From NCBI GenBank assembly GCA_900314795.1, contig OMWP01000014.1, positions 1 through 55,075 of the forward strand: DNA of 55,075 nt. The letters are read 5' to 3'. Shown in pieces: positions 3,223 to 52,224 of this stretch. The notes under the pieces are model-generated. The model did no database searches, was not told where the DNA came from, and worked only from the letters and a program-made list of their open reading frames with translations. Made by a program: the position numbers and the translations under genes. The stretch's first letter is position 1. Each line of letters begins with the position of its first letter. The DNA comes from an uncultured Eubacteriales bacterium (GTDB lineage: Bacteria; Bacillota; Clostridia; Oscillospirales; Acutalibacteraceae).

Positions 3223-3224
3223 AA

Positions 3225-3932: not shown

Positions 3933-4773
3933 CTTTACCTGCAACGCCCTCAATCATTCCCGTAACGACCTCATTCAGCCTTGCGGCATTGTCGGAGGTA
4001 ATAACCGGCTTGCCTGTTTGTGCTTCGATATTTTTTCTTGCGTCGCCTGCAATTTTGCCGCCGCTTTGCGCTACTTCTCTGTTTTCTTCCAAGCCATAGG
4101 GGTTTTGTGTTTTAGTCAATTCGGTGGTGGTTGCTTCGGCGAGCATATTCAGCGCAAGCTCCAGTGTGCTCATATTATCTCGGAGGTTTTCTTTTTTCAA
4201 ACCTTTGAGATTTTTATACTGGCGTGTCGTCATACCTGACCACGCTTTGGTGACTTCATCTGTCAGGATAGCATATTCTTGACCTTTCTCAACACCGTGA
4301 GCCTGCCATTGATCGGTCAGCTCCTTGCGAGCACGAATGGTTTGCAAACGCTGGTTAATCCAGTCAGCGGGATAGCCTTTTTTGGCATAAGTTTCCAATG
4401 CTCTCTCTATTGTCAGTTCAGGATCAATGATTTCTTCTATGCGTTCACTGCCGACCTGAGCCAACCACATCTTGAACGGCTCGGCTTTCTTAGACGGTAT
4501 AGATTGAATAATACGGAGAATGCCTTTTGTATCGGCGGCATTGATCTTTCTGAATTTGCCGTCGGCTGTCATCATTCGAACAGGGGTACAAATTGTACCC
4601 CACTTGGAATTCAGCTCGGGATCACGACTTCTCATTTTCTTTATGTATTGCTTTACATCCTTGCTTTCGGACAACACCTCGACAACATCCGAGACCGAAA
4701 AATACCATTCCTCTTTTTCTTCGTCCCACGCTGTACGAATAGGCTGATTTTCAAATTTTTTAATATTATCCAT
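3922..4773 (-). CDS. BRO-N / DinD-like DNA-binding protein
   Basis: This 283-residue protein begins with a BRO-N-type domain (about residues 5-110: NQPIRTAWDEEKEEWYFSV, then DVVEVL and GKFRKINAADTKGILRI). Such domains bind DNA in phage antirepressors. The C-terminal half resembles DinD/RhuM-type proteins, ending with an Ala/Gly-rich helix and TGKPVITSDNAARL. Members are common in phages and integrative elements, where they regulate genes or damage responses. GGGAGTGG precedes the ATG at suitable distance. It is the first gene of the leftward cargo block and overlaps the next gene. No catalytic motif is visible, so the role is inferred from the family. Confidence 0.75.
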   Translation of the reverse strand: MDNIKKFENQPIRTAWDEEKEEWYFSVSDVVEVLSESKDVKQYIKKMRSRDPELNSKWGTICTPVRMMTADGKFRKINAADTKGILRIIQSIPSKKAEPFKMWLAQVGSERIEEIIDPELTIERALETYAKKGYPADWINQRLQTIRARKELTDQWQAHGVEKGQEYAILTDEVTKAWSGMTTRQYKNLKGLKKENLRDNMSTLELALNMLAEATTTELTKTQNPYGLEENREVAQSGGKIAGDARKNIEAQTGKPVITSDNAARLNEVVTGMIEGVAGKDED

Positions 4774-4839
4774 TTAATCCACTCCCGATAATTTTCATAG
4801 CGTATCAACTCTATATAATTCTACCACGAAAAAGGAGAT

Positions 4840-5021
4840 ATGGCAATTGAAAAAATATTAAACTTTGTACTCTGCTGACGGAGCAACAGAATGCCATACT
4901 CCAAAAAATAAAAGACAACCACACAGAGCTTATGAACCTCGGCGAACGCGACGCGTTTGTCAGGGGTTTCTCTTTGGCTGTTAGACTGATGGTTGAAGCG
5001 ATGAGCAGCGAGAAAACCTGA
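4840..5021 (+). pseudogene. Remnant of a DUF6809-like small protein
   Basis: AAAGGAG is followed by an ATG at 4840 and nine codons reading MAIEKILNF, after which the frame ends. In another frame, from about 4860 to the stop at 5019-5021, the sequence reads TLLTEQQNAILQKIKDN, then ELMNLGERDAFVRGFSL and AVRLMVEAM. This matches the C-terminal pattern of small DUF6809-type proteins common on clostridial mobile elements (an E/D-x-F-x-x-GF-x-L-x-x-R-L/M core). The start and the end of the gene are present but joined out of frame with the middle missing, so this looks like an internal deletion. The family assignment is from memory of its pattern. Confidence 0.55.
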
Positions 5022-5089
5022 CGCGCCCTGTTTCGCCCCGTGTGGCGCAAATAAACTGTTGGGGAATGTACCCGACAAAATCAAACAAA

Positions 5090-5173
5090 ACCCACACAGC
5101 CGATTTGTCGCGGTGTGTGGGCGCAAAAAGGCACAAGCTCAGAATCAAACCGGTTCTGAATTTGTGCCTTTTT
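5090..5173. terminator. Two stem-loops between convergent genes
   Basis: CCCACAC and GTGTGGG frame a first stem (about 5090-5122). The second is a long palindrome: AAAAAGGCACAA at 5125-5136 pairs exactly with TTGTGCCTTTTT at 5162-5173, with an inner TCAGAA/TTCTGA stem. A-tract and T-tract flanks make the second a bidirectional intrinsic terminator. It lies 43 bases beyond the stop of the leftward zinc-ribbon gene. Confidence 0.8.
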
Positions 5174-5215
5174 GACGTTCAAAAACTGAGACGCTGTAAT
5201 CAAAGAATACGGAAT

Positions 5216-6730
5216 TTATTTATCCTTCCTCTTTCTGTTTGGAAAACAGCCCTCGAGCCAGTCGATGTACTCCTCGGGGGTTATGTTTCCGGCAGAGCAC
5301 TCATCACGCTTGACAAGCGCCTCATACTTCCATTTCTTGAAATCGTTTTTCTTGATTTGGTTAACTTTCACGCGAGCGGCGTACCGCTTATAATACTTAC
5401 TGTAAATCGGCAGAGCAACGTTTTCTGCCATTTTCTTTTTGTAGTTTTCCTGTGCCGCAAGTTCCTGACAGCTCCGTGTTTCACCCTCGACGATTCTGTC
5501 GCAGAATCGGGTGTCGTAGTTGCCCTTCATAATGAAATATCTGCCGCAACGCTTGCATTTTCGGAAACGGATATCATTCTCAATCATCTTACTCAGCTCA
5601 AGCTCAAGCATTTCTTCCGTAGATGAAAAGCTGTACCGCCTTGTCAATCTGTGAGTGCGGCGCAGACAATGGGAGAGCGTATCTGCCGACGTGTTCAATT
5701 CCGCAGCCAGTTCTTCCAGAGGCTCCGCAGGATATTCCATTTTAAGCTGTGCTATCGTAGCACCGAAATCATAAGTGTGAGTTTTCTCGTCCATTAAGGG
5801 AGCGAATGCCATATACAGTTCCTCATTACGTTCAATGAACGGAGGAAAATCCTTCGCCATTCTAAATGTATAATATCTTTCGGCGGGGGTCATATTTCCG
5901 AGCAATTCAGGATAGTAATCCTCATCAAAACAGAACTGTAAAATATCAAGATATTCCTTCTGCAAGGCTTTCAAATATTGATAATACCGCTTCATAGAAA
6001 GATAAGTATCCGCGCTCCGTTTTATCACCAGAGGACATATCGCGGTATATAAAGACACTTCCGTAATTCCCCTTGTGTCGTCACACGAAAAATAATATTC
6101 ATAGTAGTTGTGAATCCGCTCATCTAATTGATTCTCTATTTTTTCGGGAGATAACTCTTTTCTTTTTTTCGTTTGATTGTCTTTATTTTTTTCGATGTAT
6201 TCTTCCCGGAGTTGATAAAACAACCCGTATATTAACGCTGTATCCTTGTACGCCGAATCAAAATCAGCGTAAACAAAGTCAAGAATTCCCTCGCCAAGCG
6301 GCATGGTGATATTGCATCCGCTAAGAATATTATGTAACGGTTCACGCGTAATCTCAGGATGCTCCTCATAGAAAGTTTCTACATAGTCTTCAAAGCGTCC
6401 CCTTTCAATCTTATAGCGGGACTCAAAAGCCGCCAAAGACTGTTCCTGATTTGCGATTTTATTTTCAAGATATTCTTTCGAATCGTCCTCTTTGGGTGTA
6501 TGTTCGCTGACAAATCTATTGAGCTGTTCCTCCGTTCCCTCGTCCTCAATCCAATAATACATATTTACAAATTCGTATTTATAATTTACCTGAATTCGAA
6601 CAGTTCTGTTATCTCGCGGGAACAAAGCAAAATTCGTAGTCATATCAAGAGTAACATATTTGTTGTTAGCTCTGAGCCAGCGGTACTTTTCGTATTCGGT
6701 TGGTTTGTAACTCGAATAATCCTTATCCAT
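5216..6730 (-). CDS. DUF6076-like zinc-ribbon protein
   Basis: This 504-residue protein is mostly helical and charged, with a C-terminal zinc-ribbon: Cys392 and Cys395 in KCKRCGRYF, then Cys410 (TRFCDR) and Cys421 (RSCQEL). Large proteins with this C-terminal ribbon (DUF6076-type) are frequent next to replication or mobilization genes of clostridial integrative elements, and their biochemical role is unknown. The ATG at 6730 is chosen over 6757 because GAGGG lies eight bases upstream. It is divergent from the RepA-like gene, and the 140-base gap between them contains two copies of an AAAGAACRTTCT motif that could be shared operators. Confidence 0.65.
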   Translation of the reverse strand: MDKDYSSYKPTEYEKYRWLRANNKYVTLDMTTNFALFPRDNRTVRIQVNYKYEFVNMYYWIEDEGTEEQLNRFVSEHTPKEDDSKEYLENKIANQEQSLAAFESRYKIERGRFEDYVETFYEEHPEITREPLHNILSGCNITMPLGEGILDFVYADFDSAYKDTALIYGLFYQLREEYIEKNKDNQTKKRKELSPEKIENQLDERIHNYYEYYFSCDDTRGITEVSLYTAICPLVIKRSADTYLSMKRYYQYLKALQKEYLDILQFCFDEDYYPELLGNMTPAERYYTFRMAKDFPPFIERNEELYMAFAPLMDEKTHTYDFGATIAQLKMEYPAEPLEELAAELNTSADTLSHCLRRTHRLTRRYSFSSTEEMLELELSKMIENDIRFRKCKRCGRYFIMKGNYDTRFCDRIVEGETRSCQELAAQENYKKKMAENVALPIYSKYYKRYAARVKVNQIKKNDFKKWKYEALVKRDECSAGNITPEEYIDWLEGCFPNRKRKDK

Positions 6731-6791
6731 TTTTATCCCTCGTTTTTGGAGAATCAAGATTTGTTGATTTTTCGACGATTAACATCACTAC

Positions 6792-6861
6792 AAAGAACAT
6801 TCTACAAAACTATTGTGTTTTTGTCAATGTTGAATTTATAATTAAATCGAAAGAACGTTCT
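6792..6861. promoter_or_regulatory. Promoter and paired AAAGAACRTTCT operators
   Basis: A rightward promoter TTGTGT (6813-6818) with an 18-base spacer to TATAAT (6837-6842) precedes the RepA-like gene. AAAGAACATTCT at 6792-6803 and AAAGAACGTTCT at 6850-6861 are near-identical 12-mers exactly 58 bases apart, flanking this promoter. The second contains a perfect palindrome, AGAACGTTCT. Their placement suggests binding sites for an element-encoded repressor controlling both divergent genes. Confidence 0.55.
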
Positions 6862-6870
6862 GAAATTTTA

Positions 6871-7983
6871 ATGAATGAGGTGACAACCATAACAGATTAC
6901 AGCAAATATGATTTAGACATCAGAAAAACATTTAACTCCGTTGACGGAGATACGCTTCTTGATATGGACTTGCCGGCAACAAAATTTGTAATAAAGGATT
7001 TGTTGCCGCAGGGACTTGCAATCCTCGGCGGCTCCCCGAAGGTCGGTAAGTCTTGGCTGATGCTTGACTGGTGTGTTCGTATCGCAAAGGGCGAAAAGAT
7101 TTGGAATTTTCCTGTTACGCAAGGCACAACCCTCTATGTCAGTCTTGAAGATACCGCAAGCAGGCTGCAGGAGAGATTGCTTTCCGTTACAGACGAGACT
7201 CCAAATGTTTTCTTTACCACATTCAGCTTTAAAATCGGCGAAGGTTTTGAAGAACAAATCAAAAACTTTGTCGCGGAGCATCCGGACACGGTTCTGATTG
7301 TGATTGACACATTCCAGATGATTCGCAACACAGGCAGCGAGATAAGCTACGCAAGCGACTACAACGAGGTTGAAGTTATCAAGAAGCGTGCGGAGGAATT
7401 GAAGATTACCATTCTCCTTGTTCATCATCTGCGAAAGCAGGGCGACAGCGACCCGTTCAATATGCTCTCAGGCACTAATGGTCTTGCCGGTGGCGTAGAT
7501 ACAATGTTTGTTCTGGATAAGAGCAAACGCTGTTCGACCAATGCCACGCTATACTGCTCGGGGCGCGACATCGAGGACAGAGAAATCGAACTGAGCTTTG
7601 ATAAGGACAACTGTACTTGGAATTTTGTTTCCGACAGCTCGGACAACCCCGAAATGCTGTTGCCTGATGACATTCGCTTGCTCGTTGAGTTTATGAAAAA
7701 GAAAATCAAATTCATAGGTTCTAACACAGAGTTCACAAACGAATTTGTTTCTTTCTGCGGTAAAGAAATCAGCGCCAAATCCTTAAAGCGCAGGATGAAT
7801 AGATACCGCCGCGAGCTTGAGGAAAACGGAGTCGAGTTTAATTCTAACCGCAGTAACGGAAAGAGGATTTTAAGTATCAACTATACAGCCAAGAGTGACG
7901 ATAGTGACGTTAAGGACGATAAAAATACCGTTCCCGAAAATGTCGTCAATATCGTCCCTGTCGTCCCTGAGCGCCCCTGTTAG
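6871..7983 (+). CDS. RepA-like AAA ATPase / helicase
   Basis: The 370-residue protein has a RecA-like ATPase core: Walker A GGSPKVGKS (53-61), Walker B VLIVIDTF, and a HHLRKQGDSDPFNMLSG segment typical of the RepA/RSF1010-type hexameric helicase family (AAA_25). Such proteins support replication or processing of plasmids and integrative elements. The C-terminus is a charged tail with a possible winged-helix (ISAKSLKRRMNRYRRELEE). The ATG at 6871 has no ribosome site. GAGGTG lies just inside the frame, six bases before an in-frame ATA at 6889 where a start codon would be expected. The real start is therefore uncertain. Confidence 0.8.
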   Translation: MNEVTTITDYSKYDLDIRKTFNSVDGDTLLDMDLPATKFVIKDLLPQGLAILGGSPKVGKSWLMLDWCVRIAKGEKIWNFPVTQGTTLYVSLEDTASRLQERLLSVTDETPNVFFTTFSFKIGEGFEEQIKNFVAEHPDTVLIVIDTFQMIRNTGSEISYASDYNEVEVIKKRAEELKITILLVHHLRKQGDSDPFNMLSGTNGLAGGVDTMFVLDKSKRCSTNATLYCSGRDIEDREIELSFDKDNCTWNFVSDSSDNPEMLLPDDIRLLVEFMKKKIKFIGSNTEFTNEFVSFCGKEISAKSLKRRMNRYRRELEENGVEFNSNRSNGKRILSINYTAKSDDSDVKDDKNTVPENVVNIVPVVPERPC

Positions 7984-41206: not shown

Positions 41207-41683
41207 TTATTCGCTTTTCTTCAGCTCCATATAATATCGGTAATTCACGCCGTTCAGGATCGCGTGCATCTGGATCGCGAAAATGAATACGGCAGATGAC
41301 AGAACCGAGATAAAATTAAAGAGAAAGTTGCCGTGGATCGCATCGTTGACCTGCCCGATGATCAGCATCACAAGGCTGATGACAAAGGAGATGATCATCA
41401 CGATATCCGCTTTCTTAGCCAGAGGATGGGAGAAAAATACGATCATACCGGGCTTTCCGTTTCGCTTTGCAGTGGAGTCGCTGTTCTGCTTGCGAGCGCT
41501 GCTGAAACGATAAAACATCACATATCCCAGCAGCAAGAATAAAAAGAACAGCAATCCGCCGATGAACGATATGGATTTTGCCAACGCATTGTCCACGCTG
41601 TCAAATACGGCGCATAACAGCATGAGCGAGGAAATCAGCAAAAAGAGGATCGCTCTCTCCATAACTTTCTTTTCTTTTGACAA
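41207..41683 (-). CDS. Hypothetical membrane protein of the NHLM/TIR/FHA cluster
   Basis: This protein of about 158 residues has four membrane helices in two pairs: FLLISSLMLLCAVF and IGGLLFFLFLLLGYVMFY, then MIISFVISLVMLIIG and a last helix near the C-terminus. A basic loop with Ser/Lys (SSARKQNSDSTAKRNGK) separates the pairs. Start is uncertain: GGGGTGAT precedes a TTG at 41683, a GTG lies at 41692 and an ATG at 41662. It is the last gene of the leftward FHA-PP2C operon. I do not recognise the family. Confidence 0.65.
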   Translation of the reverse strand: MSKEKKVMERAILFLLISSLMLLCAVFDSVDNALAKSISFIGGLLFFLFLLLGYVMFYRFSSARKQNSDSTAKRNGKPGMIVFFSHPLAKKADIVMIISFVISLVMLIIGQVNDAIHGNFLFNFISVLSSAVFIFAIQMHAILNGVNYRYYMELKKSE

Positions 41684-41785
41684 TGATATCACCCCATCGG
41701 GTCTTTATATAATGTGTATCCAAATCCATACAAAACAAAAATCTTGCGGCACAGATACCTGCGCCGCTGTATGTTTCTGATATGA

Positions 41786-42289
41786 TTATTCAATGATCTC
41801 CTGTGTATCGCACACGATCACTTGCTTGACGATCTCGAAAGATACGCCCTCTGCAGGGGGCACGCTTTCTGCTTGAACCACAACATTCGTCCCGGGATCT
41901 CCGAACTGCTGGGTCACGGCTTCATTCTCACCGATCTGTGCCGGCTGAGCGTTGTATTCGGCGGTTTTCACATCATCCGCAACAGGGACAGGTGTGGGAG
42001 CGGTACCGTCGACGGCCTTGGTGATACCTTCCTTCGTTCGGATCTCCTGTGTGATCTCCGCATTGACAGCCTGATCGGGCGTCGGCTGCGGTTCACTCTT
42101 ACCCATCATCGTCTGCAGCTCCGGGTTCTCGGTTGAAGTGTCAACGCCTTCCTTCTCAAAGTCGGCGTTTTGCTTTTTCTTACCGCGGATACCGAAAACA
42201 AAAATCAACAGGATCGCTGCAATCAAGAAAAGGACAGCAACAGCTAAGCATATATAGATTCCGATTCGCATCATGTCATTTGTTTCCAC
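41786..42289 (-). CDS. Single-pass membrane protein with Pro/Thr-rich tail
   Basis: The 167-residue protein has one N-terminal helix (IGIYICLAVAVLFLIAAILLIFVF), a short basic GIRGKKKQ stop signal, and a long acidic, Pro/Thr/Gln-rich, probably unfolded cytosolic tail that ends in a small structured part (VSFEIVKQVIVCDTQEIIE). GTG 42289 is chosen because AAGGAGGG lies eight bases upstream. It follows the PP2C gene in the same operon. The Thr/Ser-rich tail could be a phosphorylation target for the cluster, which is inference. Confidence 0.65.
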   Translation of the reverse strand: METNDMMRIGIYICLAVAVLFLIAAILLIFVFGIRGKKKQNADFEKEGVDTSTENPELQTMMGKSEPQPTPDQAVNAEITQEIRTKEGITKAVDGTAPTPVPVADDVKTAEYNAQPAQIGENEAVTQQFGDPGTNVVVQAESVPPAEGVSFEIVKQVIVCDTQEIIE

Positions 42290-42358
42290 TATGCCGTCCC
42301 TCCTTTTTTGGATTTTGATTTGTATGATCGTCATTCACGGCGTCATCGTATGATGATA

Positions 42359-43126
42359 TCAGATCACTTTGACCAATAAAACGGTGATGTTATCCGTTTC
42401 GCGTCGGTTCTTATTCAACTCTGTCAGATAAACAGCATTGTCCATCATCGTTTGTTCATCCGTGAGCACGGAGTAATTGAGATACTGGAAGATCTCCTCG
42501 GGCGTGATAACATGTCTGAAACCGTCGGAGCACTGCATAAAGACCTGACCGGACACACAGGCGCCGGTATAATAATCGGGTGTGATGATCGGACTGGCGC
42601 CGACACACTGCAACAGCACGTTGCGTCGGGGATGGACAGCGGCCTCTTCGGGCGTGATATGACCCAGATCGACTTCCCGCTGTACAAAGCTCTGATCTTT
42701 TGTCAGCTGATACAAGCCGTCAGAGATCACATAAGCCCTGGAGTCGCCGATGTTGATGAGATAATACTGTTCCTTCATGAACAGCGCCGCGTTCAGGGTG
42801 GTACCCATGCTCACCCCTAAGGGAGCCGCATAGGCAGCGATCTTTCGGTTACAATCCATCACCAGCTCTTCCCACTCGCCGAAGATCATCTTTTCGGGAT
42901 CTTCCATATGGAGCAGCTTTGGTAATTCATTTTCAAACCAACTGCTAAACGCCTTGATGACCGTTGCACTGGCGACTTCGCCTTTGGCAAGACCGCCCAT
43001 TCCGTCACAGATGACCGACAAAAGCACCTTGCCGACGTCTGTCTGTGCCTCCATCATCAGTGCGGAGTCCTGGTTTGTACTTTTTCTGATACCGACATCC
43101 GTATGTACTGCCGTTAAAAAATCCAT
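42359..43126 (-). CDS. PP2C-type Ser/Thr protein phosphatase
   Basis: The 255-residue phosphatase has the PP2C metal-site motifs in order: RKSTNQDS near residue 14, VICDGMGGLAKGE (Asp41), GTTLNAALF, NIGDSRAYVI, CSDGFRHVI and TDNITVLLV. It is similar to Stp/PrpC, which reverse Ser/Thr kinase signals. The ATG at 43126 is preceded by AAGGA; longer frames lack a start site. No Ser/Thr kinase is found in the window, so its kinase must be encoded elsewhere. It lies between the FHA protein and a membrane protein with a Thr-rich tail. Confidence 0.9.
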   Translation of the reverse strand: MDFLTAVHTDVGIRKSTNQDSALMMEAQTDVGKVLLSVICDGMGGLAKGEVASATVIKAFSSWFENELPKLLHMEDPEKMIFGEWEELVMDCNRKIAAYAAPLGVSMGTTLNAALFMKEQYYLINIGDSRAYVISDGLYQLTKDQSFVQREVDLGHITPEEAAVHPRRNVLLQCVGASPIITPDYYTGACVSGQVFMQCSDGFRHVITPEEIFQYLNYSVLTDEQTMMDNAVYLTELNKNRRETDNITVLLVKVI

Positions 43127-43386
43127 TTTTCCTTGGCCTTTCCGCCCACACAGCGACCCTCTGCCGATCCAGCCCTGTTGTAAAGACTCATCCGACGACT
43201 GCCGCACGGCGATCGATCGGATGATATCGGCGGAGTTATCCTGCACAAAAGGCTGATTTTATCCTGCCCTTTTGCGTAGGATATCACCCCGGATCTCTGT
43301 TATTGATTATTGATTGTCAAATACGATTTTCGTCCGTATCATCACCAAAAGCTGTTCACACACCGGTGCAAACAGCTATGGTTGAT

Positions 43387-44256
43387 TTAACCGATAAACT
43401 CGAATTCTTCGTTGGATAATTTCACCTTGTCGCCGGGGATCAATGCGACCTCCTGATTGGGAGAGAGCTTCGTGCCGTTGATATAGGTGCTGTTTGTAGA
43501 ACCGAGGTCGCTGATATAGCATTTACCCGCGCGCACCTTGATCTTCGCGTGTCTGCGGCTGATCGAGTTATTATTGGTGATGCAATAATCCACCTTGGCT
43601 CTTTCTTTGCCGATATAAAACTCCGGCTTATTGATCAAGACCTTTTCCGATCCGTTTTTGCGCATGAGCACATAGCCCGACGAATCTGTGCCGAGTACCG
43701 TTGTATCGCCTGCGCCGTCTACAGGGTATGGCTTTATCTCGCCGTTCTGCATAAAGCGCTCTGAAACCTTGGGACGAGACGTCTGCTGATCCATCTCCGC
43801 ATTCATCGGCTGATTCATTGCCGGGTTCATCGGTTGCTGCATTGCCGGATTCGTGGGCTGATTCATCGGACGATTCACCGGTTGCTGCATCGACGGGTTC
43901 ATGGGTTGATTCATCGGACGGTTCATCGGCGGTGCTTGATGATAATTCTGTACATTTGTCTGATTCGGCATGATGTTGTTATCATTCTTATTCTTGTTGG
44001 TGATCACCAGGATCACTACAACTACCGCGACAAGCGCCAGTACCAGAAGAATAATAATAAAGACGAGAATACCCATCACGGAATCCGAAACATAACCGTT
44101 GGTCAACGCCTTTGCCATTTCGCTTAATGAAATGCCGGCAATATCGGCAGATGCCGCAGATGCCTGTAAACCGGAAGCTGTCATCATACCGATCATCATA
44201 ACCAGTACCGACAATATTCCAAGTATTTTTTTCATTGTTTTGTTTGTGAAACGCAT
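43387..44256 (-). CDS. Membrane protein with cytosolic FHA domain and PMNQP repeats
   Basis: The 289-residue protein has a signal-like hydrophobic start (about 9-33), a short outer segment, a strong membrane helix (about 60-86), and a cytosolic linker with eight or so degenerate Pro-Met-Asn-Gln repeats (about 108-150). A C-terminal FHA domain follows (about 213-288) with the phosphothreonine-binding residues in NSISRRHAKI and DLGSTNSTYING. Between linker and domain lies GDTTVLGTD, like the phospho-Thr docking motif (ETTVL type) known from FHA partner proteins. The second ATG (44256) has AGGAGG at ideal spacing. It heads an operon with PP2C and two membrane proteins. Confidence 0.88.
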   Translation of the reverse strand: MRFTNKTMKKILGILSVLVMMIGMMTASGLQASAASADIAGISLSEMAKALTNGYVSDSVMGILVFIIILLVLALVAVVVVILVITNKNKNDNNIMPNQTNVQNYHQAPPMNRPMNQPMNPSMQQPVNRPMNQPTNPAMQQPMNPAMNQPMNAEMDQQTSRPKVSERFMQNGEIKPYPVDGAGDTTVLGTDSSGYVLMRKNGSEKVLINKPEFYIGKERAKVDYCITNNNSISRRHAKIKVRAGKCYISDLGSTNSTYINGTKLSPNQEVALIPGDKVKLSNEEFEFIG

Positions 44257-44471
44257 TTTCATATCCTCCTGAAAAAAGCTATTGTAAATCTTTGTTATAG
44301 CTAAACGACGATTCCCTTCAACCTATGATGAAATCAATTATATTATATACTATATATAGGCGTTATATAACGCCGATCCACAAGGAATAGTTATGAAGCA
44401 AAAACACCTGTTTTCGCATAAAAATTCATACTTCCCCGATTTTATATATGATAATCCTATTGTGATAGTTT

Positions 44472-44500
44472 ATTATAACATTCATCCAAATTTCTGTCAA
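44472..44500 (-). promoter_or_regulatory. Strong promoter of the FHA-PP2C operon
   Basis: On the minus strand TTGACA (44495-44500) and TATAAT (44472-44477) are 17 bases apart, a consensus sigma-A promoter. The leader is about 210 bases long and includes the perfect palindrome GGCGTTATATAACGCC (44359-44374). This accounts for the gene-free gap 44263-44678 together with the terminator at 44626-44652. Confidence 0.85.
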
Positions 44501-44625
44501 TAAAAAAGCCGTAATCTGTTAATTGATGATCGGTATCATTCCCCCTGTCAGTCGTATGTTGTGAACGATCCTTTTATACCGATTTTTACATCAGCCTCCG
44601 ACAAGATACTCGTCGATGCTGATAA

Positions 44626-44652
44626 CGCCGTCGTGATCCTGCCACGACGGCG
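44626..44652 (-). terminator. Terminator after the TIR gene
   Basis: CGCCGTCGTG (44626-44635) and CACGACGGCG (44643-44652) form a perfect 10-bp stem. On the minus strand it lies 27 bases beyond the TIR stop codon; the T-tract is short. Confidence 0.65.
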
Positions 44653-44678
44653 CTTTTAGTGACTGTTCGTTGATAGCA

Positions 44679-45668
44679 TTATGTATGGGTCCATTCTTCG
44701 TAAAACCGGATGACCGAATCCTCTTGATATACCTTTCCCCCATCGGGCAAATCGCTTTGCTGCACGAGCTTGTTGATCGACGGGATCTGAGATTTGATCG
44801 AACCGCCTGAGCGACTGAGTATCACCGCGATAATACTCAACGCCAGTGCCAATACCATCAGAACGATCATGAGCGGGATCAGCCATTTTAAGTGTCTTTG
44901 ACTGTCGTTTTTCCTCGGACCTTGAGTTTCCTCCACCCTTCTGATATCGCTCTTCATTCTGATAGGCTTCAGGCTTGCCTCTCGGTTGAAGTCTTCTTTA
45001 GAAAAGATCTTTGTATGCTCACCTCTCTGCTGCGGAACCGCCCTGATCGTCTGCGGGTCGGGATGGTAGGTGGGGTGATAGGTCACGTTGACCTTACGGC
45101 TTTCATAACCGGCACTGTTTTCTTGCTCCGAAAACCACATGTCACTGAACGACGGTCCGCCTGCTCCGCCGCTGTCATACGACTCGTCCTGATACTCTGC
45201 GGCAGACGAGATATGGACGCTCTCATCCGGAGCGCCTTTGGAGGATGCCAACAGCGGTGAACGATACAGTTTCCCGAAAAACTCATCATCCGACATACCG
45301 ACCTTTGCGATCGACTGGGCTGACGACAGCTGCATCTGCATACCGGGTGACATCGCGACGGTCTCTATCGCTACGGATATCAGCGGTTTTCTTTTGAGAA
45401 GGGTAAAGTTGATTTCTCGCCTGCAATTGTGAGAGTTCAATGCGTTATCCGACAAAAACGCGATACAAAGCGCACAGCGGCTCAGGTGGTCGGCGATCAC
45501 CTCGGGCCAGTCGGCGCCGGGGTCGATCCCCTCATCATACCACACTCTGTATCCGTCGCGTGCCAATCGCTCAATGATCGGATATACCTCTTGTTTATCT
45601 CGATGACAATAGCTGACGAAAATATAATTGTCCGCCCCTTCATACGGACGTACAGAACATCGCTTCAT
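44679..45668 (-). CDS. Membrane-anchored TIR-domain protein
   Basis: The 329-residue protein has an N-terminal TIR domain (about 12-125): strand YIFVSYCHRDKQEVYPIIE, BB-loop region RVWYDEGIDPGADWPEVIAD, and helix NCRREINFTLLKR with Glu85 where NADase TIR domains have their catalytic glutamate. A long Ser/Gly/Pro-rich, probably unfolded linker (about 140-255) leads to one membrane helix (about 261-285) and a 40-residue outer tail. The TIR domain therefore faces the cytosol. ATG 45668 has GAGGGA seven bases upstream. It follows the STAS gene by 50 bases and is probably in the peptide-STAS-TIR operon. Confidence 0.87.
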   Translation of the reverse strand: MKRCSVRPYEGADNYIFVSYCHRDKQEVYPIIERLARDGYRVWYDEGIDPGADWPEVIADHLSRCALCIAFLSDNALNSHNCRREINFTLLKRKPLISVAIETVAMSPGMQMQLSSAQSIAKVGMSDDEFFGKLYRSPLLASSKGAPDESVHISSAAEYQDESYDSGGAGGPSFSDMWFSEQENSAGYESRKVNVTYHPTYHPDPQTIRAVPQQRGEHTKIFSKEDFNREASLKPIRMKSDIRRVEETQGPRKNDSQRHLKWLIPLMIVLMVLALALSIIAVILSRSGGSIKSQIPSINKLVQQSDLPDGGKVYQEDSVIRFYEEWTHT

Positions 45669-45717
45669 CTGATTCCCTCGCTCTGTTTCAACATCGCAGT
45701 GTGATCGAATGTCGGCA

Positions 45718-46080
45718 TCAGTATCGTAATTCCAACAGATCCGAAAAGCCGCTTTCGTCAAAGACGGCCATCACCTCATCGGACGGATATTCGATCACCA
45801 GCGCAATATCGGACTCATCCGCTACCCGCTGCACCGTGAGCAGCGACCGCAGCGCGTTTCCGGAAATAAACGTGACCTGTGACATATTGACGCTGATCGA
45901 GCGACAAAATGACACGGCAGCCATCAGCTCGTCCTCCAATTCATGCGCCACCGTGCTTTTGATCGCACCGGATATATGCACAGACATCTCGCCATCCTTT
46001 ATCCTTTCCGATAAAGTCATGACGAGAGTGTCATCCTCGTATATTTCCAGAGCATTGTTGTTCATAACCCGTCTGATCAT
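45718..46080 (-). CDS. STAS-domain protein (anti-sigma antagonist-like)
   Basis: The 120-residue protein has a STAS fold pattern: TLVMTLSERIKDGEMSVHIS then GAIKSTVAHELEDELMAAV, and SISVNMSQVTFISGNALRSLL, where SpoIIAA-type proteins hold their regulated serine (here Ser in FISGNA). A last strand and helix close it. Such proteins relay phosphorylation or bind partners in sigma-factor or stressosome switches, often opposite a PP2C phosphatase, and a PP2C gene lies 2.6 kb downstream. The start is 12 bases after the peptide gene stop, with AGAGGAT between. Confidence 0.85.
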   Translation of the reverse strand: MIRRVMNNNALEIYEDDTLVMTLSERIKDGEMSVHISGAIKSTVAHELEDELMAAVSFCRSISVNMSQVTFISGNALRSLLTVQRVADESDIALVIEYPSDEVMAVFDESGFSDLLELRY

Positions 46081-46091
46081 TTGTTATCCTC

Positions 46092-46274
46092 TTAATCTTC
46101 CTGCTCGGATTTCCGATAGAAAAAGTCCGGCTTTGCGGCAGCCGCGATATGATCCAGCTCATCCATCGACAGCTCGTCTTCATCGAATTTACCGATCAGG
46201 CGAGAGAGTCTGTCATCCGAAGCGAACTCCTGGCTGTCCTTCATTTTTGTTAAGAATTTTTCGAATTTTTTCAT
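46092..46274 (-). CDS. Candidate exported peptide precursor with double-glycine-type leader
   Basis: This 60-residue peptide has AGGTGACGAC before its ATG and a consensus promoter of its own. The N-terminal part is an amphipathic helix, MKKFEKFLTKMKDSQ. The leader ends in DEDELSMDELDHIAAAAK, which has the E-L-S-x-x-E-L-x-x-I/V pattern of NHLP, Nif11 and double-glycine leaders, with Ala-Ala in place of Gly-Gly. The remaining core would be only 12 to 14 residues (KPDFFYRKSEQED), acidic and aromatic, with no Cys. It lies between two NHLM exporter genes' operon and the STAS/TIR genes, so it is the likely cargo of the C39 exporter or a signal. It could also be a non-exported regulator. Confidence 0.6.
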   Translation of the reverse strand: MKKFEKFLTKMKDSQEFASDDRLSRLIGKFDEDELSMDELDHIAAAAKPDFFYRKSEQED

Positions 46275-46316
46275 GTCGTCACCTTTGTCCTTTCTGTAAA
46301 ACGGACATATATTTTT

Positions 46317-46345
46317 ATTATACATGGCTGCGGATCATTTATCAA
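46317..46345 (-). promoter_or_regulatory. Promoter of the peptide-STAS-TIR operon
   Basis: On the minus strand TTGATA (46340-46345), a 17-base spacer and TATAAT (46317-46322) lie about 35 bases before the ribosome site of the peptide gene. Confidence 0.8.
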
Positions 46346-46383
46346 GAGCTTTCTGTAATTCGCTCACGATATCAAGCTGCCGA

Positions 46384-46427
46384 CGGAGATGCGAGGGGAT
46401 CATTAATCGTCATCAATGAGATCTCCG
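46384..46427. terminator. Stem-loop downstream of the 157-residue membrane protein gene
   Basis: CGGAGAT (46384-46390) and ATCTCCG (46421-46427) enclose a second pairing, TCATT with AATGA. No T-tract is seen, so terminator activity is uncertain. Confidence 0.4.
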
Positions 46428-46487
46428 ACAACACCCGTTATCGTTCCGAAAACAAGAGAAGCTCTTTGTGATCCTCACATTGATTGA

Positions 46488-46961
46488 TCAGAATAGAGAG
46501 ATCAGGTTTGCACCTGCACAGGCGATCATCAGCGGTGCGATCATGCCCCACGGTTTGTCTTTAAACATCCTGATCCCGTTGATGGTGATCACGGTGTTGA
46601 TCGCGTAGATAATCAGGAAGCTGCCGATCGCAGCGAGCGTCATGCCCGTAGTGGAGAATACTGTCAGAGATCGATACAGACCGTGTGCCATAAACATCAG
46701 ATTCTGACCGATCGCAAAAAATGATGCGATACAAAAGCCGATCCTCAGCGGCATGCTGATTTTTTCATCGGGGATCATCTTCAACAAGCGAACACACGCG
46801 AATGCAACCATCGCCGCTACGATCACCACCGCGCATCGGCTGTATGCTGTCACAAAAAGCGCTGACTTGCCGATTCTCTTCACGAGTACGCCGCTGATGA
46901 TCAGTATCGGAGCCGCAGCTTTCGTGATCGATGCTGTCTTTCTCCATGCTGTGTTTGTCAT
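46488..46961 (-). CDS. Hypothetical membrane protein of the NHLM cluster
   Basis: The 157-residue protein has about five membrane helices (for example APILIISGVLV, AVVIVAAMVAFACVRLL, GFCIASFFAIGQNLMFM, IGSFLIIYAINTVITI and MIAPLMIACAGANLISLF). It has no visible catalytic motif. ATG 46961 has AAGGA ten bases upstream. Its place between the exporter genes and the peptide gene would suit an immunity protein or an accessory transporter part, which is inference from position only. Confidence 0.7.
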   Translation of the reverse strand: MTNTAWRKTASITKAAAPILIISGVLVKRIGKSALFVTAYSRCAVVIVAAMVAFACVRLLKMIPDEKISMPLRIGFCIASFFAIGQNLMFMAHGLYRSLTVFSTTGMTLAAIGSFLIIYAINTVITINGIRMFKDKPWGMIAPLMIACAGANLISLF

Positions 46962-47057
46962 GTTGATCCCATCCTTTGTGTCTTTCTGTTTATATATACA
47001 CGCAAAGCAAGAAACTGTGACATGATTGTGAATGTTTTTTAACTTTTTAAAGTAAAA

Positions 47058-47088
47058 GCTCTCTGTACCGAAAAGTACAAAGAGCATA
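47058..47088 (-). terminator. Terminator of the exporter operon
   Basis: On the minus strand GCTCTTTGTAC and GTACAGAGAGC pair (with a G-U pair) around a short loop, followed by TTTTACTTT, 13 bases beyond the stop of the NHLM ABC2 gene. Confidence 0.75.
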
Positions 47089-47100
47089 GCGTCATCTGTT

Positions 47101-49344
47101 TTATTCTGTCACCAGCAACTGTCGCTTCGCCATGGAATAGAAAGCCCCTTTTTTCTGCATCAACTCATCAAAGGTACCCTCTTCCGCGATATTGCCGTCG
47201 CCCAGTACGATGATCCGATCACAGTCGATGACCGTGCTCAGACGATGCGCGATCATCACACGGGTCGCGTCGGTCGCTTTGAGCGTGTCCGTGATCACCT
47301 TTTGCGACAGATTATCGAGCGCGCCGGTCGCTTCATCAAAGAACAGGATCCTCGGATCGTTCAGCAGGGCGCGTGCGATCAGGATCTTTTGCCGCTGACC
47401 GCCGGAGATCATCTCCGAATCCTCTGTCAACACGGTCTGTGTGCCCATCGGCATCGTGTCCAGATCCCGCTCGAGCCCCACCGCGTGGATCGCTTTGCGC
47501 AGTTCCTGCTTTGTCGCGTCAGGTTTGGTAACCGCGATATTGTCTTCGATCGTACCCGAGATCAGCTTGCCGTCCTGCAGCACAACGCCGATCTGCTTAC
47601 GCAGCAGATACAGATCGGTTTTTGACAGCGCTTGTCCGCTGTAGGTGATCTCCCCTTCTTCGGGGCTCTCCAAACCCAATAACAATTTAAAGAGCGTCGA
47701 TTTTCCGCATCCGGACTCACCGACGATCGCGATATATTCACCCGCGCGAATATGCAGATCCAGTTGGTCAAACACCTTGCGTTCCCCCTCGCCGTAGGAA
47801 AAACACAGACCGCGGATATCGATCTCACCATCGAGTGTCGGCGGCGCTTCCTTTTCAGCATCGGCGGGCTTTTCGGCATAACGCTCCAAATCATCCGTCA
47901 TATCACGGATAAAATCATATGTTTCACCGATGTTCAAAAACGAGCGCGTCGCCAGCGCGGTGTAAGACGCCATCAGCGTGAAGGAACATAAGAATGCCGC
48001 CCAGCGCTCCGGTCGGAACGACTCCGCCGACCAACCGCTGATCAGGCAGAATATCGCCGCAAATAGTACCACGGCGATCGACATGGTGTCATGAGAAAAA
48101 TGGACGTTTTGATAGCGGATCTCCTCGGCATCCTCTTTCTTTGCGAAAGAGCGCAGGTATTCGAGCGTAGCCTTTTCCTCTGCGCCCGAAAGACGGATCT
48201 TGACGATACCGGTAATGAACTGGTACATCAGCGATCCGGCGTGATTGTCATACTGCATCGCCTTTTCGCGATACCGCATCGCCGTGCGCATCAACGCTAC
48301 ATAGACTGTCATCAACACCGCCAGCAATACCGCGCCCGCCGCCGCCATCACCGGGGATAACCACAGGCACATAATAAAACATGCCGCTGTCGCGATGACC
48401 CCAAAGAGGAACGAATGTGTCCCCGTCATCACCTTTGCGACGACCTGCTTGACATGCAGCATCATATTGGCGGTCTCAGCGGATTCATGCTCTCTGAAAA
48501 ATCGATATTGCAGTGAAAAGAACCCTTTGATCACCTGTTGCTCTGCCCTATCGGCAAGGCGTGACGCCTCTTTCCCCGTGATCAGTTCTCCGATGCTTTG
48601 TATCACGGACGATCCAATCACGGCGATCAGCATGATCAACAGCATCTGAAACAGCATCGGCATTGGAACCGCACCGTGAGGTTCTTCTACCGACGCAAAT
48701 TCCCTGAGCTTCAAGATACCGAACGGCAGTACCTGTAACAGCAGCGCTGCCGACAGCATCACCACGATGATACCGATATTCGCGAGCGGTTCCAAGCTGT
48801 TCAGGCTCATGCGGATCAGACGACATGTCGGCAAAAACACCTTTTTTTCCGCGGTCGTATCCCGACGGGTTTTTTTCTTCTTCTCCTTTTTATCCTGTAC
48901 CAGCTTCAGGATATCCTGTTCGATTTCGCCGCGCATCGATTCGGAGCGGGCAATGAACGCCTCGTTCGTTGCTTCGGCAGTACGGATATTGTCGGTGATC
49001 GCCTCATTGAAAGTGTCCGCGTACGCGTTGTCGATCTTTAGCTTGGATAAAAAATTCTTTCTCAGTTTTTTGGTCGAACCGCCCCGGATGATCCCCAACA
49101 CCGCATCGGCGCGTGATGTAAAGAGAAAACGGCGGTTCTCATAATTCATGTCGGTGTAGCAAAAGCCGGGGATCACCTCGCCCTGTTTTGCTTCATACAA
49201 AAACACTCTTTTGCCGAAGTTGTCGTGCTGATAGGTCACGACATATACAAGAAGCACACCCGAACGGACGATAAACGCGTCCTGTCCGCTCTCGGTAATA
49301 TAAACCTGTCCGCTTGTCAGACAGATACGGCTGTTATCCTCCAT
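47101..49344 (-). CDS. NHLM-type bacteriocin export ABC transporter (ABC2-like)
   Basis: The 747-residue protein starts with a cyclic-nucleotide-binding-like beta domain (about 5-95, GQDAFIVRSGVLLVYVVTY) without a clear ligand site, then a charged helical linker, six membrane helices (about 190-450), and an ATPase with Walker A GESGCGKST, signature SGGQRQKILIARALL and Walker B ILFFDEATGALD. This architecture matches the NHLM_micro_ABC2 group. ATG 49344 is chosen because AAAGGGG is eight bases upstream. It lies 57 bases downstream of the peptidase-containing exporter, and the two probably form a heterodimer. Confidence 0.88.
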   Translation of the reverse strand: MEDNSRICLTSGQVYITESGQDAFIVRSGVLLVYVVTYQHDNFGKRVFLYEAKQGEVIPGFCYTDMNYENRRFLFTSRADAVLGIIRGGSTKKLRKNFLSKLKIDNAYADTFNEAITDNIRTAEATNEAFIARSESMRGEIEQDILKLVQDKKEKKKKTRRDTTAEKKVFLPTCRLIRMSLNSLEPLANIGIIVVMLSAALLLQVLPFGILKLREFASVEEPHGAVPMPMLFQMLLIMLIAVIGSSVIQSIGELITGKEASRLADRAEQQVIKGFFSLQYRFFREHESAETANMMLHVKQVVAKVMTGTHSFLFGVIATAACFIMCLWLSPVMAAAGAVLLAVLMTVYVALMRTAMRYREKAMQYDNHAGSLMYQFITGIVKIRLSGAEEKATLEYLRSFAKKEDAEEIRYQNVHFSHDTMSIAVVLFAAIFCLISGWSAESFRPERWAAFLCSFTLMASYTALATRSFLNIGETYDFIRDMTDDLERYAEKPADAEKEAPPTLDGEIDIRGLCFSYGEGERKVFDQLDLHIRAGEYIAIVGESGCGKSTLFKLLLGLESPEEGEITYSGQALSKTDLYLLRKQIGVVLQDGKLISGTIEDNIAVTKPDATKQELRKAIHAVGLERDLDTMPMGTQTVLTEDSEMISGGQRQKILIARALLNDPRILFFDEATGALDNLSQKVITDTLKATDATRVMIAHRLSTVIDCDRIIVLGDGNIAEEGTFDELMQKKGAFYSMAKRQLLVTE

Positions 49345-49400
49345 TCGGTTCACCCCTTTCTATCGATATCATGATAACGCTCTTGTGCGTTGCATTGTAT

Positions 49401-51545
49401 TTAACGTATCAGCTCACGATACGGTCCCTCAACGCCGGCGAGCTTTTCATGCGTGCCGCGTTGGGCGAGCTTTCCGTGATCCATCACGATGATGGTATCG
49501 CTGTCACGCACCGCGCTGAGTCGGTGTGCGATCATCACACAGGTACAGCCGCGCCGACGGATATTCTTGATGATCCTGTCCTCCGTGATCGGATCAAGCG
49601 CGCTTGTCGCCTCATCCATGATGAGGATGGAAGGGTTGATCGCCAATGCGCGGGCGATCTCGATCCGCTGACGCTGACCGCCCGACAGGTTCACACCGTT
49701 TTCCTTGATCATCATATCAAACCCGTCGGTCTTATTGCGGATAAAATCATACAAGCAGGCATCCCTCGCCGCATTGGCGATATCCGCATCCGCGATCTTC
49801 GAATTCCACATCGAGATATTATCGCGCAGCGTACCCGAGAACAGCGTGATATTCTGGCTGACTGTCGCGACGCTGGCGTTGATGATGCTCTTCGGTATCT
49901 CGGTCAGATCGGTACCGTCCAGACGGATCTCGCCCTTGCGCGGACGGTACAATCCGCTGATGAGCTTTGCGATCGTCGATTTACCGCTGCCGGTCGCGCC
50001 GACGATCGCCACCATCGTACCGGGATCGATCTTCAAAGAGAGATCGTCGATCAGCGGCTTATCAAGTGAGCTGTAGGCAAAATCGACGTGCTTAAGTACG
50101 ATCTCACCCTCCAATTTCTGCGCTATCCCACGCGAATCAGCATGATAGATCCTGTCGTCCTCATACTGCAGTACATCGTTGGCGGATTGCATATCCGCTC
50201 TGGTGATACCGATGCGTGTGATCATCGGCACGATGGTATCGACCGGCGCAAAGAATGCCACAAACAGTACGATAAACGCGACATATCCGCCCTGTGTCAT
50301 TTTCCCGAGCGCTATCATATATCCGCCCAGCACGATCAGGATGACCAACAGGATATAGCGCAGCAGAGCGGCGGCGGCTCCGGTGAGGCGGCGAGTCAGG
50401 ATCAGGCGGTGTTCCGCGCGGTTGATCGCTTTCTGCTGCTTTCTGATCTTTTCGGGATAATCCCGCTCCGCGCCCGACGCCTTCAATGTATCGATGATCC
50501 TGAGTCCGGCATAGAGCTTGCCTGCCATACGGTTTTCTTCCGCACTCAAGCCGACGGAGGCGCTGTCGGCCTTTTTGGACAGCATCGCCATCGCCAAAAG
50601 CTGTATCACAAAAAATCCCGCCGCGATCAGCCCGAGGATCGGTTGGTACAGACACATCACCATGAGAAAAATCGCGGAGGTGACCAGCCCGAAAACAACG
50701 TCGGGCAGCCTGCCGGTCACAATGCGATCGGTCGCGGTATTTTTTTGTGTCCGCTGCACCAGCTCGCCGGGGTAACGCTGTTCATAAAAGCTCAGCGGCA
50801 ATCGCAGCAGCTTTGTCACAAATCGCCGCGTCGATGGCAATGCCACCCGATAACGCAAACGCGCGCGGATCGTGTTTTGACGCCACAACAACAGGATCTC
50901 CAGCACGATCAGGATCACAATGATCAGGGTACCGATCCACAGTGATCTTTCATCTCCTTGCGCAAAGAGAGGGCTTACCTGCAACGTGATGATCCGTTCG
51001 GTCAAAACCGCGATCGCCGCACAGATCCCCGCTGTCAACAATCCCATCATCAACGCGATGACATATTCTTTTCGATGATTCTCTGCTCTTTGGAACAGAT
51101 CTTTTATTGAGGTTTTTGATTTTTCTCTCTTGAAATCCTCCGTCGGTGTGAAGGTGAGTACCACACCGCCGTAGATCGCCTCGAGTTCTTCGAGGGTCAG
51201 CCTTCTGCGACCCATGGCGGGGTCGTTGAGATAGGCGTGATGATTCTTTGTTCCCTCAAAAACGACAAAATGTCCGTAATTCAACAGGATGATACACGGC
51301 GGCTGCATTTGTACCAGTGCGGCAAATGATCGCTTGTATCCGTGACCCTCCAGCCCGTATTGCTTTGCGGCGCGGATCAGGTTGCCCGCCTTACTGCCGT
51401 CGCGCGATACACCCGCGTCGACACGGATCTTCTCCATCGGGATATGTCCGCCGTGATACATAATGAGCATAGCAAGAGAAGCGGCTCCGCATTCAGCCGC
51501 TTCCATCTGCAATATCGTCGGTGTTTTGACAAATCCCTTCATCAT
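49401..51545 (-). CDS. C39 peptidase-containing bacteriocin export ABC transporter (NHLM ABC1-like)
   Basis: The 714-residue PCAT protein has an N-terminal C39 peptidase domain with its residues intact: Gln13 (oxyanion), Cys19 in MEAAECGAASL, His92 in YGHFVVFEG and Asp108 in LNDPAMG. Six membrane helices (about 160-430) and an ATPase (GATGSGKST, LSGGQRQRIEIARAL, ILIMDEATSALD) follow. Such proteins cut leaders after a Gly-Gly or similar pair and export the core. A substrate gene is proposed at 46092-46274. It lies 69 bases downstream of the sigma factor gene. Confidence 0.92.
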   Translation of the reverse strand: MMKGFVKTPTILQMEAAECGAASLAMLIMYHGGHIPMEKIRVDAGVSRDGSKAGNLIRAAKQYGLEGHGYKRSFAALVQMQPPCIILLNYGHFVVFEGTKNHHAYLNDPAMGRRRLTLEELEAIYGGVVLTFTPTEDFKREKSKTSIKDLFQRAENHRKEYVIALMMGLLTAGICAAIAVLTERIITLQVSPLFAQGDERSLWIGTLIIVILIVLEILLLWRQNTIRARLRYRVALPSTRRFVTKLLRLPLSFYEQRYPGELVQRTQKNTATDRIVTGRLPDVVFGLVTSAIFLMVMCLYQPILGLIAAGFFVIQLLAMAMLSKKADSASVGLSAEENRMAGKLYAGLRIIDTLKASGAERDYPEKIRKQQKAINRAEHRLILTRRLTGAAAALLRYILLVILIVLGGYMIALGKMTQGGYVAFIVLFVAFFAPVDTIVPMITRIGITRADMQSANDVLQYEDDRIYHADSRGIAQKLEGEIVLKHVDFAYSSLDKPLIDDLSLKIDPGTMVAIVGATGSGKSTIAKLISGLYRPRKGEIRLDGTDLTEIPKSIINASVATVSQNITLFSGTLRDNISMWNSKIADADIANAARDACLYDFIRNKTDGFDMMIKENGVNLSGGQRQRIEIARALAINPSILIMDEATSALDPITEDRIIKNIRRRGCTCVMIAHRLSAVRDSDTIIVMDHGKLAQRGTHEKLAGVEGPYRELIR

Positions 51546-51613
51546 TTACCCTATTCTGCCCATCTGTTTGCCGGAACGACGTTCAGTCGTCCGCATTCTC
51601 TCTGTTGACGGTC

Positions 51614-52123
51614 TTAATACTCGATCTGTCGCATATCAAAGTAATCCTTGAGCTTCTTGACCGTCCTCGAGGCGATTGCACGCACATTATCGGACGTCAG
51701 TCCCGTGATCTGCGCGATCTCCTTAGAGTTCTTGTTCTTAAAGTATTTCAGTACGATCACCTGCTGCTGTACCTCGTTGAGCGTTTCCAGCGCGTCGGCA
51801 AGCACATCACGCAGCTCGGCGAGGTGCTGTGCCTCGACCACAGCGTCCTCCATTCCGTCATCCACGGCGGAGTAATCCTGCAGTTGAGCAAACGTCTGAT
51901 CACTGCGATAATGGTTTTTCAGCTTATTGGATGCAATCGTGAACACCCATGTTCCCAGCGACGCTTTTGTTTCGTCATAGCGGTCAAAATGCTTATAACA
52001 CGCGGTGAACGTATCCATCGTCAGATCCTCCGCCGCATGAAAATTACCGGTTTTTTTCAGTATATATTTGAATACTTTGTCGTAGTATTCCGCATAAAAT
52101 GCTTCAAATTTTTGATCGTTCAT
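51614..52123 (-). CDS. Sigma-70 family (ECF-like) sigma factor
   Basis: The 169-residue protein has only the sigma2 region (FEAFYAEYYDKVFKYILKK, AEDLTMDTFTACYKHF, TWVFTIASNKLKNHYR) and the sigma4 region (LNEVQQQVIVLKYFKNKNSK then EIAQITGLTSDNVRAIASRT). That is the make-up of ECF sigma factors. ATG 52123 has GAGG nine bases upstream and is preferred over 52138. No typical membrane anti-sigma gene is adjacent. Its position directly before the exporter genes suggests it controls this cluster, but the promoters I found for the peptide and FHA operons look like ordinary sigma-A promoters. Confidence 0.87.
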   Translation of the reverse strand: MNDQKFEAFYAEYYDKVFKYILKKTGNFHAAEDLTMDTFTACYKHFDRYDETKASLGTWVFTIASNKLKNHYRSDQTFAQLQDYSAVDDGMEDAVVEAQHLAELRDVLADALETLNEVQQQVIVLKYFKNKNSKEIAQITGLTSDNVRAIASRTVKKLKDYFDMRQIEY

Positions 52124-52224
52124 TTCGCTCATCCTCATTACCCAATCCTGTGAACCGTGTCAATCGTTATAGCAAGGCATGTCGACACCTCTATCAAATC
52201 CATGCCGAAATCACGATCGGCATG

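Follow-up and report, generated by a model that had tools for sequence, protein, structure and literature searches.

A recurrent gene set linking TIR, STAS and FHA proteins to peptide exporters in Clostridia

The window, a stretch of 55,075 nucleotides from an uncultured Eubacteriales bacterium (contig OMWP01000014.1), harbors on its minus strand eleven genes (52138 down to 41207), in which a pair of NHLM-related peptide exporters (ABC1 and ABC2) is combined with a sigma factor, a short double-alanine peptide and STAS, TIR, FHA and PP2C proteins. The grouping is real and more than adjacency: exporter, STAS, TIR, FHA and PP2C genes and the peptide, which is conserved, were found to recur together in related loci rather than independently of each other. 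Its recurrence in bacteria that are only distantly related makes the set a probable functional unit, the role of which we infer from its genes. With moderate confidence, it is read as a peptide exporter under threonine-phosphorylation control, with TIR and STAS as readout and an extracytoplasmic function (ECF) sigma factor as output, regulated in a manner resembling type VI secretion systems (T6SS).

A scan of GTDB with the N-terminal part of ABC1 yielded at least 80 loci; together with locus L080, 81 loci were scored with custom profiles, which were made for this analysis along with their thresholds. Assessable were 56 loci (55 of the 80 and L080), having an ABC1 of at least 600 amino acids (aa), an ABC2 and at least 6 kb after ABC1. 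The remaining 25 loci were excluded, among them L128, which has a degenerate TIR and fell to the 6-kb rule. A TIR gene on the same strand, about 3–7 kb beyond the C39 exporter ABC1, was detected in 18 of the 56 assessable loci, compared to approximately 0.14 TIR genes expected in the 1.04 Mb of assessable DNA (background of 54 matches in 200 genomes of the window's family at roughly 2 Mb each, the genome size being our own estimate). STAS was found in all 18 TIR loci and in 17 of the 38 TIR-less loci, the short peptide in 17 versus 3. The corresponding values are 14/18 versus 3/38 for FHA, 9/18 versus 2/38 for PP2C, 8/18 versus 2/38 for a Ser/Thr kinase, 16/18 versus 18/38 for the sigma factor, 14/18 versus 38/38 for HlyD and 9/18 versus 18/38 for Nif11-like precursors. 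All PP2C and kinase matches and two of the three FHA matches of the TIR-less group are supplied by L159 and L168. Both encode all three proteins, but their TIR is degenerate or was not detected; the degenerate TIR of L159 is fused to FHA. Near copies (L092/L093, L095/L096 and L106/L108) are present on both sides of the comparison. The gap between the STAS and TIR genes is at most 54 nt in 17 of the 18 TIR loci, and 12 of the 18 encode a TIR-FHA fusion; the FHA protein of the window stands alone and is tethered to the membrane.

Among 20 exporter regions from the window's family, several of them cut by contig ends, a TIR gene was found in one (L040), in the order sigma factor, HlyD, ABC1, ABC2, short peptide, FHA, STAS and TIR-FHA fusion. 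Ten ABC1 relatives with E ≤ 1e-110 were found in 100 genomes of the genus and nine with E ≤ 1e-150 in 394 genomes of the order, the window genome being counted in both, and ABC2 relatives were found in 31 of 200 genomes of the family, where NHLM-type exporters are thus common. TIR loci are distributed over several clades of the ABC1 tree, one large clade being free of detected TIR; this tree cannot separate gain from loss. Pairwise distances of STAS track those of the sigma factor (Spearman 0.68, or 0.61 once three near copies are removed) and of TIR (0.50; 0.39 without these copies; Mantel p 0.001–0.01), and ABC1 tracks ABC2 (0.92). The hosts are Clostridia, many of them from animal guts according to database records. 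As the locus is also found in named isolates, Schaedlerella arabinosiphila DSM 106076 (L157) and Flavonifractor sp. An112 (L159, with the degenerate TIR), it can be tested.

Gene cluster and exporters of the window

The features of the cluster are listed below; L092 and L093 are close relatives of the window locus, and L078 and L093 denote one locus.

51614 to 52138, minus strand: ECF-type sigma-70 family factor of 174 aa (TIGR02937), 93% identical in L092 and L093
49401 to 51545, minus strand: ABC1, C39 peptidase-permease-ATPase of NHLM type, Cys19/His92/Asp108 intact (Pfam/NCBIfam)
47101 to 49353, minus strand: ABC2, permease-ATPase with N-terminal beta-roll, about 100 aa shorter than in L040 and most relatives
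46488 to 46961, minus strand: multi-span membrane protein of 157 aa, with clear relatives confined to L092, L093 and L080, which lack HlyD
46317 to 46345, minus strand: housekeeping-type promoter TTGATA-17-TATAAT ahead of the peptide, STAS and TIR genes, conserved in L092 and L093
46092 to 46274, minus strand: double-alanine peptide of 60 aa with L-12, E-8, L-7, I-4, AA at -2/-1 and a 14-residue tail
45718 to 46080, minus strand: STAS protein without S-[AS]-G-L motif
44679 to 45668, minus strand: membrane-anchored TIR protein, TIR domain at residues 1–134, Glu85 at the NADase position
44472 to 44500, minus strand: housekeeping-type promoter TTGACA-17-TATAAT ahead of the FHA and PP2C genes, conserved in L092 and L093
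43387 to 44262, minus strand: membrane-tethered FHA protein (FHA match of 60 bits)
42359 to 43126, minus strand: PP2C phosphatase with DGMGG, CSDG and DNIT present
41786 to 42334, minus strand: single-span membrane protein of doubtful membership, counterpart only in L078/L093
41207 to 41692, minus strand: multi-span membrane protein of doubtful membership, counterpart only in L078/L093

The original prediction had described ten genes on one strand. The strand and all named genes (sigma factor, two exporters, STAS, TIR, FHA and PP2C, by Pfam and NCBIfam) are as described, while the count rises to eleven. Start codons were re-placed by eye from the sequence and its relatives, giving 45668 for TIR (open reading frame 44679–45761), 46274 for the peptide, about 43126 for PP2C (open reading frame 42359–43246) and about 46961 for the 157-aa membrane protein. 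Counterparts of the membrane gene pair at 41207–42334 were found only in the 84% relative (L078) among 86 loci searched, and outside L092, L093 and L080 the 157-aa protein has a single weak match among the loci (L123, E 0.004). Three of the four small proteins (the 157-aa protein, the peptide and the protein at 41786–42334) matched no family over cut-off in the Pfam/NCBIfam scan.

Promoter-like sites number 21 in the region versus 13.5 expected from shuffles. The two best, on the minus strand, match at 12/12 and 11/12 positions and precede the FHA and the peptide gene, respectively. Because both are conserved in L092 and L093, the genes probably form at least three transcription units (sigma factor and exporters; peptide, STAS and TIR; FHA and PP2C) and not the single ten-gene unit assumed before.

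ABC1 matches TIGR03796 over its full length (residues 7–714, E 6.7e-236) with 784.9 bits, under the cut-off of 853.3, and ABC2 matches TIGR03797 with 449.3 bits, under the cut-off of 709.4. Judged by its match, ABC1 is of an NHLM-related type and is not filed as a TIGR03796 equivalog; the NHLM type predicted for both exporters is borne out, with both of them below the curated equivalog cut-offs. The C39 residues Cys19, His92 and Asp108, already noted in one exporter, are invariant in all seven aligned sequences (window and six relatives). The window genome contains one full-length C39 exporter match. Among the four TIR loci without HlyD, L166 starts inside ABC1; the window, L092, L093 and L080 all lack HlyD and have the small multi-span protein in common. 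The sigma factor reaches 105 bits against TIGR02937, over the cut-off of 42.9.

The cluster shares with the NHLM/NHLP bacteriocin exporter, as presented in the main text of Haft et al. 2010 (PMC2887384), paired ABC exporters of which the first has a C39 peptidase, leader-peptide substrates and, in most relatives of the window locus, HlyD. It differs in that the window exporters are under the curated cut-offs, the window genome is without HlyD and the window copy is linked to TIR, STAS, FHA, PP2C and sigma factor; the words TIR and sigma are absent from that main text. The absence of enzymes modifying ribosomally synthesized peptides (RiPPs), which had implied novelty, loses weight, as Nif11-like precursors are present in 27 of the 56 assessable loci (a count of precursors).

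Proposed control of the exporter

According to the threonine-phosphorylation reading, the C39 exporter pair would recognize, process and export small leader peptides. These would be the double-alanine peptide (17 of 18 TIR loci) and, for roughly half of the TIR loci, additionally Nif11-type precursors with short hydrophobic, bacteriocin-like cores. A threonine-phosphorylation module would gate export or expression. In the putative order of signalling, the phosphorylation state would be set by PP2C and a membrane Ser/Thr kinase, which the window locus lacks, and would be sensed by FHA domains. TIR, linked to FHA, would then relay this state together with its STAS partner to the exporter and/or the ECF sigma factor, with a putative contact between STAS and sigma factor. 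Control would thereby be similar to that by kinase, phosphatase and FHA in type VI secretion, placed on a Gram-positive peptide exporter. By analogy, the purpose is likely competition or cell-cell signalling.

Phospho-signalling as control, as suggested originally, is strengthened by the kinases of 8 and the TIR-FHA fusions of 12 of the 18 TIR loci. The kinases have one predicted span where complete enough (simple hydropathy script), and their motifs are complete in 8 of 11 (by pattern), that of L080 being degenerate and two being cut. In the sister locus L092, a kinase gene directly follows that of PP2C, so the window locus appears to have had its kinase lost or relocated. The PP2C of the window matches PP2C_2 (37.3 bits, over 24) and, under the cut-off of 230, NF033484 (176 bits). 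In the consulted part of PMC3953482, the type VI threonine phosphorylation pathway has PpkA, PppA and Fha encoded with the secretion machine for post-translational control. Ser/Thr kinase, phosphatase and FHA protein beside secretion genes are common to both, whereas here a peptide ABC exporter is concerned, TIR and STAS are added and the window locus is without kinase, for which last reason the cluster is not filed in that pathway. In L080 (1617–6465), TIR and an adjoining kinase-like protein without standard HRD/DFG (by pattern) have similar GLKSDGTV repeats as outer part, which we take to be RCC1-like.

Several findings weigh against phosphorylation control of the exporter. The window locus encodes PP2C and FHA and no Ser/Thr kinase; the 11 kinase matches of the window genome are all located outside the cluster, and the eight compared are at most 44% identical to the kinase of L092. 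By a rough pattern, only 13 of 20 FHA sequences have complete phospho-binding motifs, and only 7 of 13 PP2C sequences have theirs complete (pattern). The phospho-acceptor motif S-[AS]-G-L is found in none of the 22 STAS rows from the window and the cluster loci, and no anti-sigma genes were recognized, no profile search being aimed at them. The two best promoters are of the housekeeping type, so the ECF sigma factor need not drive them. HlyD of the NHLM kind (TIGR03794) had no match in the window genome; in the control, 12 of 14 genomes matched, none over cut-off. A GG precursor was not found in the search of the window genome (run without positive control), and the consulted parts of the literature name GG, GA and GS as cleaved motifs, without Ala-Ala. 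The Fisher tests of linkage ignore relatedness, and the ABC1 tree holds too few independent pairs for significance. Finally, ABC1 and TIR distances are uncorrelated (0.02). Over 182 residues, the window TIR shares 62% identity with the L101 TIR, and the window ABC1 shares only 41–44% with relatives from other lineages; exporter and signalling module may have changed partners.

A STAS protein near a sigma factor is reminiscent of RsbV/SpoIIAA partner switching, in which the sigma factor is SigB or SigF. Here, in contrast, the phospho-acceptor motif is not conserved, no anti-sigma kinase was recognized and the sigma factor is of the ECF type. In the TIR-less loci, S-[AS]-G-L is present in 19 of 20 STAS rows, the 20th being cut short. 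In L117, L121, L131, L134 and L144, where no TIR was detected, a sigma factor and an S-[AS]-G-L STAS are located near the exporters, a hint that the TIR-less branch may be controlled by a form of partner switching.

Whereas the exporter belongs to a known kind, searches of the open-access literature, none aimed at the Ala-Ala leader alone, brought up no description of the linked module or of the double-alanine peptide. They led to a conflict-system paper (PMC7159879), and a word search of PMC12345188 found none of the terms sought. With a recurrent module of kinase, PP2C, FHA, TIR, STAS and sigma factor beside exporters, control of secretion through phosphothreonine would reach peptide export in Gram-positive bacteria, and bacterial TIR domains would have a function other than suicide in response to phage; the module also predicts that double-alanine leader peptides form a class.

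The double-alanine peptide

Among 25 unique peptides (window included), leucine is present at -12 in 24 and at -7 in all, and valine or isoleucine at -4 in 22. Where Gly-Gly would be expected, alanine is found at -2 in all 25 and at -1 in 24. The tails comprise 13–26 residues and are F/Y-x-x-F-like in 16 of 25 (loose pattern). The set includes peptides of L094, L098 and the cut locus L114, where no TIR was detected. A bias is possible, since AA peptides served as seeds of the profile and the script that set the register gives preference to L, V/I and Ala at these positions; in an independent alignment of nine peptides, both Ala columns were invariant. The short leader peptide of the original prediction is thus present and conserved (17 of 18 TIR loci), while its assignment to the double-glycine type fails, with Ala-Ala in 24 of 25 and in nine of nine independently aligned peptides.

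Nif11-like precursors of the whole locus set, including TIR-less loci, carry GG in 47 of 58 unique sequences. A profile comparison of the double-alanine and Nif11 leader types covered only 16 columns (19% probability, E 0.0012). GG precursors with short hydrophobic cores adjoin the exporter in relatives, and by their sequence these cores look like unmodified bacteriocins. In L168, two identical Nif11-like precursor genes are located close together (1983–2255 and 2416–2688).

Com and Blp are peptide-pheromone circuits and the model for the alternative that comes nearest, which is possible yet clearly less probable than phosphorylation control. The double-alanine peptide would be exported as a short linear signal, sensed by the ectodomain of kinase or TIR, and would turn on the sigma factor and bacteriocin-like genes. 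The leader positions -12, -7 and -4 are kept, the kinases have one predicted span, and the peptide accompanies nearly all TIR loci (17/18). The F/Y-x-x-F-like tail (16/25) cuts both ways: it suits a signal, but is conserved across distant genera, which most pheromones are not. The peptide has Ala-Ala instead of GG and no Pfam or NCBIfam match of note. In the consulted part of PMC10885120, hydrophobic residues at -12, -7 and -4 are the positions reported for recognition by ComA, and GG, GA and GS are the motifs named as cleaved there and in the consulted part of PMC6363468. With ComAB-ComC/Blp, the cluster shares a C39 exporter and a short leader peptide with these hydrophobic positions (PMC10885120, same part), but it has Ala-Ala for Gly-Gly, and no histidine kinase or response regulator is among the genes scored.

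A little less probable still is a leader mimic that binds C39 uncut, as plug or load sensor, with the GG peptides as cargo. AA at -2/-1 in 24 of 25 peptides versus GG in 47 of 58 Nif11-like precursors fits such a division, and the conserved tail suggests an intracellular partner; the missing GG cargo in the window genome (searched without positive control) speaks against it.

The TIR protein

The TIR protein matches TIR_2 (PF13676) with 74.8 bits, over the cut-off of 28, and Thoeris ThsB (PF08937) with 18.1 bits, under the cut-off of 21.2; it is the one TIR_2 match of the window genome. The glutamate at the NADase position, predicted for this membrane-anchored protein, is present (Glu85) and kept in 19 of 21 cluster TIRs; in two of 21, Glu and BB loop are lost. 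In the profile alignment it aligns with a glutamate of the CRISPR-linked TIR Cat1, which is catalytic. The proposed structure prediction gave a TIR fold (predicted local distance difference test, pLDDT, 91.7) close to the SPARTA and SARM1 TIRs. TIR fold and glutamate are shared with the bacterial TIR NADases (AbTir, Thoeris ThsB, SPARTA and Cat1), whereas the window and cluster TIRs are membrane-anchored or FHA-fused, tied to an exporter and, for the window, under the ThsB cut-off.

The TIR might act as a signalling enzyme and not as a killer, which we consider improbable: clustering via FHA, dependent on phosphorylation, would activate TIR to make an NAD-derived nucleotide, sensed within the unit by STAS or the CRP/cupin-like beta-roll at the ABC2 N-terminus, and the exporter would open, with the double-alanine peptide as non-cleaved reporter. 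If so, export of the bacteriocin or pheromone would be nucleotide-gated. Equally improbable, and less likely than phosphorylation control, is defence by self-sacrifice, with TIR as an NADase triggered via FHA/kinase sensing and the exporter releasing toxins or alarm peptides. The aligned, largely kept glutamate (19/21) and the model near SPARTA and SARM1 (pLDDT 91.7) are in its favour; against it speak the loss of Glu and BB loop in two of 21 and the chromosomal flank of ABC and membrane genes, which the G211 copy and the 84% relative L078 have as well. PADLOC returned generic matches only (ABC ATPase, best 9.5e-32; phosphatase, 7.7e-8; TIR, best 5.5e-6), by which the conflict or self/non-self role proposed earlier is weakened. 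Of the earlier interpretation as a whole, co-occurrence and phospho-control stand; double-glycine leader, single unit, conflict role and novelty by lack of RiPP enzymes have lost ground.

A search of the order gave 19 strong TIR matches in 16 of 394 genomes, of which only those of the window genome (G000) and G618 lie inside such a cluster. Near the other 17 (15 stretches, some of 4–9 kb only), custom profiles detected no C39 exporter, STAS, FHA or PP2C, and seven further stretches with TIRs from the family search, scoring up to 199 bits, had none of these partners either. As most of these TIRs are outside clusters, the TIR family is used widely in other settings; a separate subfamily of cluster TIRs is not shown by these sequences. 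Chance adjacency of unrelated genes, with which the 17 of 19 strong order-level matches outside such clusters would agree, is very improbable given the recurrence statistics and the gene order conserved across genera.

A lipoprotein-like gene, possibly for an extracellular partner, follows the TIR-FHA gene in L139 (16896–18422), L145 (10489–11901) and L171 (14067–15728); the stretch PDE-x-KLPELEKE is common to L139 and L171 and similar in L145. Outside the exporter setting, a single protein of L199 (1663–3702) combines Ser/Thr kinase-like and TIR segments in a weak fusion. Three TIR proteins of about 590 aa are encoded in tandem in L190 (1066–6413). At the other end of the window, positions 1–7000 have a G+C content of 0.36–0.44 compared to about 0.46–0.57 elsewhere and are possibly acquired DNA.

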